A stretch of 45,157 bases of DNA, taken from positions 1 to 45,157 of the forward strand of contig JAQWNN010000050.1 of assembly GCA_029268555.1 (NCBI GenBank), given 5' to 3'. Of the stretch, positions 15,450-19,717 are shown one piece after another. How positions within the stretch are numbered: position 1 is the stretch's first letter; every line of letters starts with the position of its first letter. Both the position numbers and the translations under genes were made by a program. This stretch comes from Flavobacteriaceae bacterium (GTDB lineage Bacteria; Bacteroidota; Bacteroidia; Flavobacteriales; Flavobacteriaceae). The notes beneath the pieces are model-generated. The model was not told the DNA's origin. It saw only the letters and a program-made list of their open reading frames with translations, and searched no databases.

Positions 15450-16565
15450 ATGGTTTGGAAGCACACTATTGGTCAAAAAAAAACAAAAAGATATTTGACA
15501 TATTTGTTAGATTCTTTTCAAGTTCCTCATGCTCAGATATTTAAGTCTGATTCAGGTTATGGAAACTTGGCTATAGGTATTGAATTTGCTTTAAATCTTT
15601 TGAACGTAAAAGGGCCTATAGAAGACAGAAAAACATTAGGCGAAAGGTGTCAACAACCTAATCTACATTTTATTTACCCTGTTGTAAAAAGAGGATCAGA
15701 AAAAACAGTATTTTCAATAGATTATATTAAAGATTGGTATGAATTCCTAAATATTTCTCCTTATAGAAGCTATATAGATTGGTTTGATCATATTAATGTG
15801 GGTAATAAACAAGGCTCTATTTCGGTATCAGAGATAACAAAATTACACCATAGTTTATCCCTTAAAGGTTTTGGTGGAGGTAACAAAGTTTGTTTATTAT
15901 GGGGCTTAGAAAAAATGAATGCTCCAGCTGCCAATGCGTTTCTAAAGCTGCTTGAAGAGCCCCCTAAAAAAACCTATTTTATTCTTTTATGTGAAAGTAC
16001 AGAGAACGTTCTTCTAACTGTTCTTTCGCGTTGCCAAGAGCTCTCGATAGGTCCTATAGAAGAATATGCTTTATTAGAACACATTCCTAAATCACATCCC
16101 AATAAAACAAAAATACTCAAGCAAGCTCAAGGAAACTTTATTACCCTTAAGAACCTTCTTTCTGATGGACAGGATGAACAGTTTGAAGCTCTTCTGGTGA
16201 AAGGTCTACGTTTTGCATTTAAGGCAAAAACAAATAAGGTTGTTATTATGGATTTAATGAACTGGTCTAATGAGCTAGCCTTATTGGGAAGGGAGAGTCA
16301 GAAGGCTTTTTTGCGCTTTGGGGTCCAATTTTTTAGGGATGCTTTCTTAAGGAACTACGACCTTTCTGAGCTTGTTCATTTTACTTCTGAAACTGGTTTT
16401 GATATAGATAAACTAGCTCCTTTTATACATCAATCAAACATTCAAAAACTAATTGACCTTTTTGAAAACCACCATTATTATGTTCAAAGGAATGCAAATT
16501 CTAAAATGATGTTTGCTGAAATAGCACTTCAGCTTACTACTTTAATAAACACTCCAAAAGACTAA
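15450..16565 (+). CDS. holB: DNA polymerase III delta' subunit
   Basis: A 371-residue clamp-loader subunit. It opens with WKHTIGQKKTKRYLTYLLD and PHAQIF, the usual delta' start. The P-loop position is degenerate (SDSGYGNLAIG, no GKT/S), as expected for delta', which does not hydrolyse ATP. The sensor region has NAFLKLLEEPP and the SRC motif (LSRCQEL), the delta' arginine-finger signature. Delta' works with DnaX and delta to load the beta clamp. Its stop interlocks with that of the convergent methyltransferase. Confidence 0.92.
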   Translation: MVWKHTIGQKKTKRYLTYLLDSFQVPHAQIFKSDSGYGNLAIGIEFALNLLNVKGPIEDRKTLGERCQQPNLHFIYPVVKRGSEKTVFSIDYIKDWYEFLNISPYRSYIDWFDHINVGNKQGSISVSEITKLHHSLSLKGFGGGNKVCLLWGLEKMNAPAANAFLKLLEEPPKKTYFILLCESTENVLLTVLSRCQELSIGPIEEYALLEHIPKSHPNKTKILKQAQGNFITLKNLLSDGQDEQFEALLVKGLRFAFKAKTNKVVIMDLMNWSNELALLGRESQKAFLRFGVQFFRDAFLRNYDLSELVHFTSETGFDIDKLAPFIHQSNIQKLIDLFENHHYYVQRNANSKMMFAEIALQLTTLINTPKD

Positions 16566-17401
16566 CTTTTTTTATAAACAAATATTTTAGATGAATATTC
16601 TCCGTTTAAAAAAGCCCTAAAATTGGAATAGAGTCCAAGAAATAAACCTTTAAAGAAAGCAAATCTATTTCCTGAGTAACGCTCAGAAATTAAGGAAATA
16701 TAAATTGCATCAAACCATAATGGGTATGTTTTCAATAAGGAAAATCCATTTCTGTCTAGAAGTTGATTCAGTCCCTTGGGAGTGAAATGCCAGAGATGCC
16801 TTGGTACGTCAAGTGCTGCCCAAAAAACGCCATAATGACGCGAGTCAAAGCTATTTAGATTTGGTACAGCTATAATTATTATGCCATTATTTTTAAGTCT
16901 TTTATAAGAGTTTTGTAAGGTCTCAATTATATTGTCTACATGCTCAAGTGTATGCCAAAATGAAATGATGTCATATTTTTTAGCATTTGGCAAATCGTCA
17001 AATGAATAGTATGACTCAATCCTTTTTTCTACTGCAATCTTTCTTGCTTTTGTGTTTGGTTCAATCAAAGTTGTAACATACCCCATTTTACTCATATAAT
17101 TTGCAAAAACGCCTATTCCTCCTCCAAAATCCAATAAATTAATTCCTGACAAGTGCTGCTTAATTATCGAGTGTTTGTAACGTAACATAAATTGCTGAAC
17201 CATAACATAGGCCTTGCCTTTAAGTCCTTTTGGTTTTTCCTTATGAGATGCATAATCCGTTTTAGGGTAGTAAGTAGAAAGGTCTGTTTGATTTTGTATT
17301 TGAGTAGAAGCATAACCTAAAGACTCATAATAAGCCACTTTAAAGTTTTCCCCCGAAACCAGATGATCTTTTACTTGAATTGTGTTATTTTTTAATTTCA
17401 T
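16562..17401 (-). CDS. class I SAM-dependent methyltransferase
   Basis: A 279-residue protein. The SAM-binding glycine-rich motif is LLDFGGGIGVFANYM with acidic IEPN one strand later, followed by YDIISFWHTLEHVDN and NNGIIIIAVPN, which are motifs of the Methyltransf_11/UbiE-like group. The first 70 residues are a polar extension and the C-terminus has a hydrophobic segment. It follows mnmG by 26 bases that contain the better parS-like site, so it is probably the last gene of the ybeY-mnmG operon. Substrate unknown. This is not RsmG (gidB), the usual partner of mnmG. Confidence 0.85.
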   Translation of the reverse strand: MKLKNNTIQVKDHLVSGENFKVAYYESLGYASTQIQNQTDLSTYYPKTDYASHKEKPKGLKGKAYVMVQQFMLRYKHSIIKQHLSGINLLDFGGGIGVFANYMSKMGYVTTLIEPNTKARKIAVEKRIESYYSFDDLPNAKKYDIISFWHTLEHVDNIIETLQNSYKRLKNNGIIIIAVPNLNSFDSRHYGVFWAALDVPRHLWHFTPKGLNQLLDRNGFSLLKTYPLWFDAIYISLISERYSGNRFAFFKGLFLGLYSNFRAFLNGEYSSKIFVYKKS

Positions 17402-17404
17402 AGA

Positions 17405-17420
17405 TGTTTCACGTGAAACG
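17405..17420. promoter_or_regulatory. parS-like site (15/16 match)
   Basis: TGTTTCACGTGAAACG differs from the bacterial ParB-binding consensus TGTTTCACGTGAAACA only in the last base. It fills most of the 26-base gap between mnmG and the methyltransferase. parS sites are normally concentrated near the replication origin. No parA or parB gene is in the window. Confidence 0.8.
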
Positions 17421-17427
17421 CTTTTTA

Positions 17428-19299
17428 CTAACGACCCATGCTAACGAGAAGGACACTTATGTCGCTTGGATTTATTCCGCTTATCCTAGAGGCCTGTGCT
17501 AAAGTTGTTGGTTGAATTTTAGTAAGCTTTTCTTTAGCTTCATGAGATAGAGAGGCTAATCTCTCATAATCAAATTCAGGCGGAATTTTGATGTTTTCTA
17601 ACCGCTTTAGTTTGTCTGCTGTTCTTTTTTCTTTATCAATATATCCTGCATATTTAATTTCGATCTCGGCTTGCTCGAAAATTTCATCATCCATTGCATT
17701 CTCGTCAAGAAAAGATATAATGCTTTTAAATTTTAATAAATCGTTTCTTTTAATATTTGGTCTAGAAAGTAGTTTTGAAAACTTATCTTTTTGTCTCACT
17801 TCACCGTCGTTGTTGTTTCGAAGAATCTTATTAGCCTGAGCGAGACTATAGCTAGATTTCTCTAAATACAATACTAAGTCTTTGCCTTTTTTTTGTTTCC
17901 GTTCAACAGATCGCATCCTTTCATCTGAAGCTAGGCCTAGTTCATATGATTTTGCTGTGAGCCTCTGGTCTGCATTATCTTGACGCAAAAGTGTTCGATA
18001 TTCAGCTCTTGAGGTAAACATTCTATATGGTTCATCTGTACCCTTCAAAATTAGATCATCTATTAGGACTCCAATATAAGCTTCTTCTCGGCCAAGAATA
18101 AAGGGTGTTTTGTTTTTGCTTTTTAAATGAGCATTTATTCCTGCCATGATTCCTTGAGCACCTGCCTCTTCGTATCCAGTAGTTCCATTAATTTGGCCTG
18201 CAAAAAATAAATTTTGGATCCTCTTCGTTTCTAAACTGTGATATAATTGTGTTGGGGGAAAGTAATCGTATTCTATAGCGTAGCCGGGCCTGAAGAACTT
18301 AACGTTTTCAAACCCTTTGACCTGCTTAAGCGCTTTATATTGTATGTCATCAGGGAGGGAGGTAGAGAAACCATTAACATAGACTTCAACGGTATTCCAG
18401 CCTTCGGGCTCAACAAATACTTGATGCTGAGATTTCTCACTAAATCGATTAATTTTATCCTCTATAGAAGGGCAATATCTAGGCCCTGAGCTTTGAATAG
18501 AACCATTAAACATAGGAGAACGATCAAAACCTGTTCTCAGGACCTCATGAACATTATTATTTGTATGCGTAATATGGCAACTAATTTGTTTGGTCAATGG
18601 TTGTGTCAAATTAGTGAATGAAAATTTCAATGGCTTAGAGTCTCCTGGTTGTTCTTCCATTTTGGAATAATCCAAAGATCGTCCGTCTACACGCGGGGGT
18701 GTTCCAGTTTTCATTCGCCCAGAAGAAAATCCTAGTTTCTCTATTGCAGCAGTAAGGCCGGTGGACGGTTTTTCTCCAGCGCGTCCGCCGCCGAAGTTTT
18801 TTTCACCTATATGAATTAACCCGTTTAAGAATGTGCCGTTTGTAAGGATAACTGTTTTACTGTATATTTTTAATCCAAGAGAGGTTTTTACCCCAAGGAT
18901 TTGATCTTTATCTATAATTAAGTCAACAACCGTGTCTTGATAAAAGTCTAACTTTTTTGTTTTTTCAAGTAATGATCTCCATTCCAATGTGAAGAGACTT
19001 CGGTCTGATTGAACTCTAGGACTCCACATAGCAGGACCTTTTGATTTATTAAGCATTTTATACTGGATTGCGCTTCTATCTGATACAATTCCTGAATATC
19101 CTCCCAAAGCATCTATCTCCCTTACAATCTGTCCTTTAGCAATACCGCCCATAGCAGGATTACACGACATTTGAGCAACATTCTGAAGATTCATTGTGAC
19201 TAAAAGCGTTTTAGATCCCAAATTTGCTGCACTTGCGGCGGCCTCACAACCTGCATGCCCAGCGCCAACGACAACCACGTCATAAGAAGATTCAAACAT
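17428..19299 (-). CDS. mnmG: tRNA uridine-5-carboxymethylaminomethyl modification enzyme
   Basis: FAD-dependent enzyme (GidA) that with MnmE modifies wobble uridine 34 of several tRNAs. At 623 residues it is full length. It has the N-terminal FAD site DVVVVGAGHAGCEAA, the family signature GPRYCPSIEDK, and the second signature region GYEEAGAQGIMAGINA. It overlaps ybeY by eight bases. parS-like palindromes lie just downstream of its stop and just upstream of its start. mnmG is classically origin-linked in many bacteria. Confidence 0.98.
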   Translation of the reverse strand: MFESSYDVVVVGAGHAGCEAAASAANLGSKTLLVTMNLQNVAQMSCNPAMGGIAKGQIVREIDALGGYSGIVSDRSAIQYKMLNKSKGPAMWSPRVQSDRSLFTLEWRSLLEKTKKLDFYQDTVVDLIIDKDQILGVKTSLGLKIYSKTVILTNGTFLNGLIHIGEKNFGGGRAGEKPSTGLTAAIEKLGFSSGRMKTGTPPRVDGRSLDYSKMEEQPGDSKPLKFSFTNLTQPLTKQISCHITHTNNNVHEVLRTGFDRSPMFNGSIQSSGPRYCPSIEDKINRFSEKSQHQVFVEPEGWNTVEVYVNGFSTSLPDDIQYKALKQVKGFENVKFFRPGYAIEYDYFPPTQLYHSLETKRIQNLFFAGQINGTTGYEEAGAQGIMAGINAHLKSKNKTPFILGREEAYIGVLIDDLILKGTDEPYRMFTSRAEYRTLLRQDNADQRLTAKSYELGLASDERMRSVERKQKKGKDLVLYLEKSSYSLAQANKILRNNNDGEVRQKDKFSKLLSRPNIKRNDLLKFKSIISFLDENAMDDEIFEQAEIEIKYAGYIDKEKRTADKLKRLENIKIPPEFDYERLASLSHEAKEKLTKIQPTTLAQASRISGINPSDISVLLVSMGR

Positions 19300-19717
19300 G
19301 ATTTTGTCGTTTCACGTGGAACATATTTAAAAATTGGTCTTCAAGGCGTCTCATTTGTTTTTTATCTGAATCAGATGCGTCTGTATAGCCTAAGCAATGT
19401 AAAACTCCGTGCACCATAACTCTAATTGTCTCATTTTCAATACTTTGAGAAAATTCTTCCGCTGACAGCGCTATGGCCCATAAGGAAATAAAGAATTCTG
19501 CTCTTAGCGTTTTATTTTTTGAATAATTAAAGCTTATTATATCTGTATTTGTATCGTGTTCTAAAAATTCTTTGTTAAGCTCAAGCATTTTTTCTTTAGA
19601 AACAAAATTGTAGATGAGTTTGTCAATGCAATAATCATGTGAATCTACATAAGATTCAAGTAATATATTAAACTCCTCTTGAGAAATAAAATCTGGTATG
19701 TTGTTATGCGTTATGAT
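19292..19717 (-). CDS. ybeY: endoribonuclease YbeY, probable non-AUG start
   Basis: Metal-dependent RNase for 16S rRNA 3' maturation and ribosome quality control. The zinc motif is HGVLHCLGYTD, with Asp as third ligand as is common in Bacteroidota. The first ATG in frame (19588) would give only 98 residues and cut off the N-terminal alpha/beta element. The frame is open upstream, and the extra 43 codons read as ordinary YbeY sequence (…NIPDFISQEEF…KLIYNFVSKEK). Reading from ATC at 19717 gives 141 residues, the normal length, and aligns with the usual MI-start. Neither ATG, GTG nor TTG occurs in that stretch, so the start is probably ATC (or the following ATA). Confidence 0.85.
   Translation of the reverse strand: MITHNNIPDFISQEEFNILLESYVDSHDYCIDKLIYNFVSKEKMLELNKEFLEHDTNTDIISFNYSKNKTLRAEFFISLWAIALSAEEFSQSIENETIRVMVHGVLHCLGYTDASDSDKKQMRRLEDQFLNMFHVKRQNHV
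19308..19323. promoter_or_regulatory. second parS-like site (14/16 match)
   Basis: CGTTTCACGTGGAACA matches the parS consensus TGTTTCACGTGAAACA at 14 of 16 positions, including the CACGTG core. It lies inside the 3' end of ybeY, where it encodes part of FHVKRQ, and only eight bases upstream of the mnmG start. With the site at 17405 it brackets mnmG. Confidence 0.6.

Follow-up and report, generated by a model that had tools for sequence, protein, structure and literature searches.

Introduction

In chromosomal ParABS systems, ParB loads at parS sites and spreads from there; ParA helps to move it, and the origin region is segregated in this way. The parS consensus allows T or C at position 5 and A or G at position 12. 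In model bacteria such as Pseudomonas and Bacillus, the genes gidAB, parAB and dnaA are grouped with parS close to oriC. The gidA gene, also called mnmG, is linked to oriC in Escherichia coli as well, a species not known to have a chromosomal ParABS system.

The parS consensus used here, TGTTTCACGTGAAACA, is the one given in the passages on parS of PMC10197239, which cites Livny et al. 2007. These passages describe the detection of parS clusters in a set of 12 gut bacteria that includes two Bacteroidetes, and the use of these clusters, together with GC skew, for setting the origin; for the two gut Bacteroidetes they report that no known condensin was found. Two species descriptions within the Flavobacteriaceae (PMC11278836 and PMC12843772) used Ori-Finder 2022 together with GC skew and placed oriC at mnmG. 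In PMC11278836 the text states that dnaA misfits the skew, and one figure legend marks mnmG as ter, against the text. Among the proteins, R173 and G201 are conserved in ParB orthologues, replaced in Noc and linked to parS specificity, according to the relevant part of PMC7383237.

Here a window of 45,157 nucleotides, the whole stretch of flavobacterial DNA that was analysed, was followed up because of two parS-like palindromes that bracket mnmG. The original prediction, whose interpretation was largely supported, had proposed that the window is origin-proximal and that a gene pair in it doubles as a segregation locus. The palindromes are best explained as true chromosomal parS sites, forming an origin-proximal centromere that a ParABS system serves in trans (probability about 0.92).

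Two palindromes bracket mnmG

Table 1. Positions of the two palindromes and the neighbouring genes in the window
Feature	Position	Strand	Basis
parS-like palindrome TGTTTCACGTGAAACG, 3' of mnmG	17405..17420	.	consensus match, shuffles
parS-like palindrome CGTTTCACGTGGAACA, upstream of mnmG, in the last ybeY codons	19308..19323	.	consensus match, shuffles
mnmG (gidA), tRNA uridine-5-carboxymethylaminomethyl(34) synthesis enzyme, 623 aa	17428..19299	-	TIGR00136, 835 bits against a cut-off of 525
ybeY, rRNA maturation RNase, usual upstream neighbour, 98-aa ORF	19292..19588	-	TIGR00043
SAM-dependent methyltransferase, 279 aa, usual downstream neighbour	16562..17401	-	Methyltransf_23

Both sites were found again as originally placed, a 15/16 match in the gap after mnmG and a 14/16 match in the 3' end of ybeY (Table 1). 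The downstream site has one mismatch to TGTTTCACGTGAAACA and lies inside the 26-base gap between the end of the mnmG ORF and the start codon of the methyltransferase ORF. The upstream site has two mismatches to TGTTTCACGTGAAACA and one to TGTTYCACGTGRAACA and is located just before the mnmG start. Both are thus 16-bp palindromes close to the consensus, each with a mismatch at an outer base, and their centres are 1903 bp apart. At up to two mismatches to TGTTTCACGTGAAACA, these were the only matches in the window. The ybeY ORF, read from its first listed start codon, covers only profile positions 44–145 of 146; it has either an unusual start or a reduced length, and where it starts is uncertain. 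For RNA elements, no Rfam match at gathering score was obtained between positions 16500 and 20000.

The original prediction had also held that such a pair is unlikely to arise by chance, and this was confirmed by shuffling the window: at up to two mismatches to TGTTTCACGTGAAACA the mean was 0.02 matches and the pair appeared in 0 of 100 shuffles, and at up to one mismatch to the degenerate form the mean was 0.00. At up to three mismatches 8 of 100 shuffled windows contained the pair, so that the pair alone is weak at that threshold.

A scan of the window's own assembly (65 contigs with 1,547,219 bases in total, completeness about 75%) with two mismatches allowed, as had been suggested, located TGTTTCACGTGAAACA in two places only, both at mnmG, and revealed no matches of equal quality elsewhere in this assembly. 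Six more matches with three mismatches were each found on another contig (six contigs); with 8 matches at up to three mismatches compared with 8 for the reversed control, they look like background. The degenerate pattern at up to two mismatches gave 5 matches compared with 2 for the control.

Partner proteins ParB and ParA

ParB (TIGR00180) was found in 117 of 118 genomes of the phylum, the exception being the window's own genome. Among 60 close genomes, of which many are incomplete, 50 gave a match. The lack of a ParB homologue had been named as an outcome that would speak against a segregation locus; the homologue is widespread in the relatives and was not found in the own assembly, which is incomplete. 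ParB from the same genus matches solved ParB and Spo0J structures. Both R173 and G201 are kept in all 30 ParB sequences of the order that were read (the best 30 from the matches of 50 genomes), K or R stands at position 184 in 29 of these 30, and K stands at position 179 in none; the Noc-type residues (Q173, K179, K184, R201) are thus not those of these 30 best matches. A ParA-like ORF with a KGGVGKTT motif was seen by eye directly before parB in both loci read (L043, of the same genus, and L038). The parB gene lies far from mnmG, at distances of 169 kb (G047), 301 kb (G061) or more in all 24 genomes with the two genes on a shared contig, some contig sizes being rounded.

A first alternative is that the two sites are decaying relics, that is, true parS in the relatives and no longer used in this species. 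The absence of a ParB match from the own assembly would fit, as would the outer-base mismatch in each site, compared with two exact copies in 10 of the 14 same-genus loci checked. However, the mismatches fall on the outermost positions, which are among the loosest in sites of relatives (sites preselected by similarity), and one site with a single mismatch is also present in 4 of the 14 same-genus loci. Furthermore, completeness of the own assembly is about 75%, and a ParB match was likewise missing from 9 of the 59 other close genomes. Decay is therefore very unlikely, and parS sites still in use remain the preferred reading.

Conservation at mnmG

Within the order, the degenerate pattern at up to two mismatches is present somewhere in 58 of 60 genomes, the own one included. 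The mnmG gene was matched in 59 genomes, and 30 of these 59 loci, from 13 families, were read; a site at up to two mismatches lies beside mnmG in all 30 and on both sides in 23. A larger set consisted of named mnmG loci, mostly from Flavobacteriales, of which the best 80 of at least 592 were considered and a site was counted within 400 bp of mnmG. Among these best 80 loci (77 with at least 150 bp of sequence upstream and 79 with at least 150 bp downstream), an upstream site was found in 75, a downstream site in 70, both in 67 and at least one in 78. The reversed-pattern control gave one match in the 1.009 Mb of these loci, and 28 other matches of the pattern occur in the same 1.009 Mb, some of which belong to Flavobacterium arrays. 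Only L250 (Capnocytophaga) and L253 have no site within 400 bp of mnmG among the best 80 loci, and in L253 the locus comprises 6 kb upstream and only about 125 bp downstream of mnmG. The gene order is also kept in the best 80 of at least 592 loci, with ybeY directly upstream of mnmG in 75 and the methyltransferase directly downstream in 69.

The upstream site was compared with ybeY in 73 loci. It lies outside the gene in 48, in one reading frame of it in 21 and in another frame in 4, so that the DNA, and not a peptide, is conserved.

Copy number and core of the upstream site vary in some loci. Three Flavobacterium-titled loci (L193, L195, L198) carry 6, 12 and 7 copies, mostly 40–120 bp apart, L180 carries four, and four other Flavobacterium-titled loci have one or two. 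Some of the copies in L195 have a CACATG core, as have the upstream sites of L219 and L245 (Kordia and an uncultured Flavobacteriaceae; TGTTCCACATGGAACA), where it may perhaps reflect a shifted ParB preference.

Across the phylum, 75 genomes with a known mnmG position were searched at up to one mismatch, comprising single-contig genomes and representatives of as many families as practicable. A site lies within 5 kb of mnmG in 63 of them: within 500 bp on both sides in 24, within 500 bp on one side in 35, and within 5 kb in 4. Six genomes have sites elsewhere only (G061, G095, G122, G130, G071, G166), and in another six no site was found at this threshold (G047, G051, G149, G146, G093, G113). 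Of the latter, G047 has two sites with two mismatches beside mnmG, and G051, a genome of 0.3 Mb, yielded neither a ParB match nor a site, which is weak evidence given the small genome. Copies are few and clustered, as is usual for parS, with two sites in the own assembly. In the 75 genomes, 131 of the 166 sites, and 77 of the 92 exact matches among them, are no more than 5 kb from mnmG; the even scatter that would have contradicted the original prediction was not seen. Its question whether the sites are conserved at mnmG in related flavobacteria was answered positively, and conservation extends beyond this group (78 of the best 80 named loci, 63 of the 75 genomes). The sites themselves, their non-random placement, their conservation at mnmG and their near-restriction to it in most genomes examined were all directly computed.

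Sites away from mnmG

Two further genomes, G175 and G176, were searched outside the 75. The Capnocytophaga assembly (L250, identical to G175) has ParB, and at up to one mismatch it contains three sites, all on one contig of 5.1 kb, and none in the 13.9 kb around mnmG. The three sites are upstream of a 279-aa methyltransferase which is 39% identical to the one in the window. In the simplest reading, mnmG has moved and the sites have stayed with the old neighbour, as far as one metagenome assembly with a short site-bearing contig goes. This argues against a role as mnmG operator, and the sites seem to belong to the locus rather than to the gene pair. Thus, of the proposal that a gene pair doubles as a segregation locus, the link of the sites to the locus was retained and the pair itself was not, as the Capnocytophaga sites have no mnmG beside them. 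In G176 (L253), one exact site was found 119 bases from the contig start.

Other genomes have sites far from mnmG. In G166, contig C42 carries four sites over about 6.6 kb, with parB on the same contig about 53 kb away, and in G122 contig C61 carries two sites 2.8 kb apart; possibly, these are relocated centromeres. One of the G122 sites (L330) lies between proline racemase and DPBB_1 genes, and the single site of G095 (L331), with one mismatch, is inside a long ORF. In neither of these two loci was a neighbour gene found in common with the mnmG locus.

A near-match, TCTTCCACGTGAAAC[A/C], was seen 6.4 to 7.4 kb downstream of the mnmG start in six loci (L183, L188, L191, L194, L197, L207). It was rejected as parS, since all six encode a conserved PRETAG peptide within a long ORF; the match is a coincidence of coding, and scans for parS could be misled by it.

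A second alternative explains the palindromes as operators at which a transcription factor regulates mnmG or the methyltransferase gene, and their location would suit this, as each lies shortly before one of the two gene starts. However, a site is also present 3' of mnmG in 70 of the best 80 of at least 592 loci, the upstream site is repeated 6 to 12 times in three Flavobacterium loci, one Capnocytophaga assembly has its sites away from mnmG, and the 16-mer is the parS consensus in use in the parS passages of PMC10197239. The downstream sites, the arrays and the Capnocytophaga case led us to set operators aside as highly improbable. Chance or coding constraint can be neglected: coding coincidences do occur, as the PRETAG-encoding match in six loci of relatives illustrates, and shuffling yields the pair in 8 of 100 cases at up to three mismatches, but it yields none in 100 at up to two. 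Of the best 80 loci (of at least 592), 78 have kept a site at mnmG, as have 63 of 75 genomes, with the upstream one outside ybeY in 48 of 73 loci and in two frames among the remainder. Chromosomal parS thus remains the preferred interpretation.

Relation to the replication origin

GC skew was sampled in six single-contig genomes of relatives (20 stretches of 20 kb per genome, with sampling steps of about 5%). In five of the six, mnmG is between 0.8 and 6.5% of the chromosome away from the minimum of the detrended cumulative skew; in G047 the distance is 18%. On average, mnmG is 6.6% away from this minimum (n = 6), compared with 25% for random positions; the simulated P of about 0.0003 is uncorrected for the choice of the cumulative minimum over a square-wave fit, which was made after seeing both. 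Mean distances to the cumulative minimum were 30% for parB (n = 6) and 38% for dnaA (n = 4). By the square-wave fit, the distance between origin and mnmG was 1.7% (G087), 8.3% (G115), 8.9% (G049), 12% (G053), 17% (G038) and 23% (G047) of the chromosome. The square-wave contrast was reached by 22 of 500 permutations in G087 and by 151 of 500 in G047 (not significant), and at 20 samples per genome this fit was judged less stable than the cumulative minimum.

In the window itself, no clean switch of GC skew was found. The motifs TTATNCACA and TTATCCACA, which we take to be DnaA boxes, occur there as one exact copy of the former and eight copies of the latter with one mismatch, never two within 300 bp and without a cluster. 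An excess of DnaA boxes at mnmG itself was likewise not found in the best 80 of at least 592 loci; without a box cluster at mnmG, oriC itself was not located.

A weak excess of DnaA boxes was noticed 4–6 kb downstream of the mnmG start in the loci L178–L257, with 17 boxes in the bins from 4,500 to 6,000 bp compared with about 4 for control words. Loose boxes reach 4–5 per 300 bp in five loci in this region, namely four Chryseobacterium-titled ones (in ORFs) and the Roseivirga locus L247 (intergenic, at +4.4 kb). This stretch is a possible place for oriC.

Thus, origin proximity, as originally proposed for the window, is supported by five of six relatives through cumulative skew, less clearly by the square-wave fit, and by two Flavobacteriaceae papers, and for the window itself we infer it from relatives. 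The textbook picture of a gidA linked to dnaA and parAB does not apply here. In relatives with known places, dnaA and parB, which were to be located as a check, lie away from the mnmG locus, and the locus is for this reason unlike that arrangement. As an origin marker, dnaA is poor in the relatives examined (n = 4), in line with the passages on dnaA in PMC10197239, where it is described as not always an origin marker, and in PMC11278836.

Proposed role and relevance

In the relatives, a ParB of parS type, an adjacent ParA-like ORF and the closeness of mnmG to the cumulative-skew minimum (five of six) were computed. The proposed mechanism, based on ParABS biology as outlined in the relevant parts of the review PMC7333895, would start with a ParB from a parAB operon elsewhere on the chromosome, which would bind the two palindromes. 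Bound ParB would load as a CTP-dependent clamp and might spread over mnmG and its surroundings, and ParA would then carry the partition complex, and the freshly replicated origin region along with it, towards each daughter cell. We infer ParB binding, clamp loading and segregation and, for the window's own genome, origin proximity. In this lineage and much of the phylum, the mnmG locus would accordingly serve as a centromere close to the origin, and probably the mnmG-flanking sites mark the start of chromosome replication and separation in distant relatives too.

Rather unlikely is a further idea, by which the parS pair at the ends of mnmG would be the ancestral centromere of the phylum, kept while parAB and dnaA left, and the bracket would be functional in its own right. 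ParB clamps might fill the approximately 1.9 kb of mnmG and create a minimal partition complex of fixed size, perhaps coupling mnmG expression to segregation.

The parS site and the ParABS mechanism are already known; the conserved position at mnmG is what may be new. In open-licence papers on parS together with mnmG, nothing about Bacteroidota was found by title, and the open-licence literature, to which the parS survey of Livny et al. 2007 did not contribute, yielded no report of phylum-wide bracketing of mnmG by parS with parAB and dnaA unlinked. The mnmG gene with flanking parS would be a short, recognisable marker of both origin and centromere, readable even in fragmented metagenome assemblies, and this bears on coverage-based estimates of growth rate and on chromosome orientation. 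The locus is also an exact place to study ParB where parB is unlinked to its sites.

Comparison with known systems

The Noc/NBS system shares a ParB-family protein and a palindromic site with the locus described here. However, the sites at mnmG match parS, and ParB of the order has R173 and G201 and not the Q and R of Noc.

With the oriC-linked gidA/mnmG of E. coli, the locus has in common that mnmG probably lies near the replication origin; unlike in E. coli, the link to the origin appears here as parS sites which flank mnmG on both sides.

Closest are the chromosomal ParABS systems, with the same 16-bp palindrome, parS-type specificity residues in the ParB of relatives, a ParA-like ORF before parB, and few, clustered sites near the skew origin in most relatives sampled. 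The differences concern gene arrangement: here the sites are at mnmG (63 of 75 genomes), parB is at least 169 kb away (24 genomes), and in the four relatives in which dnaA was placed it is distant from the skew minimum.
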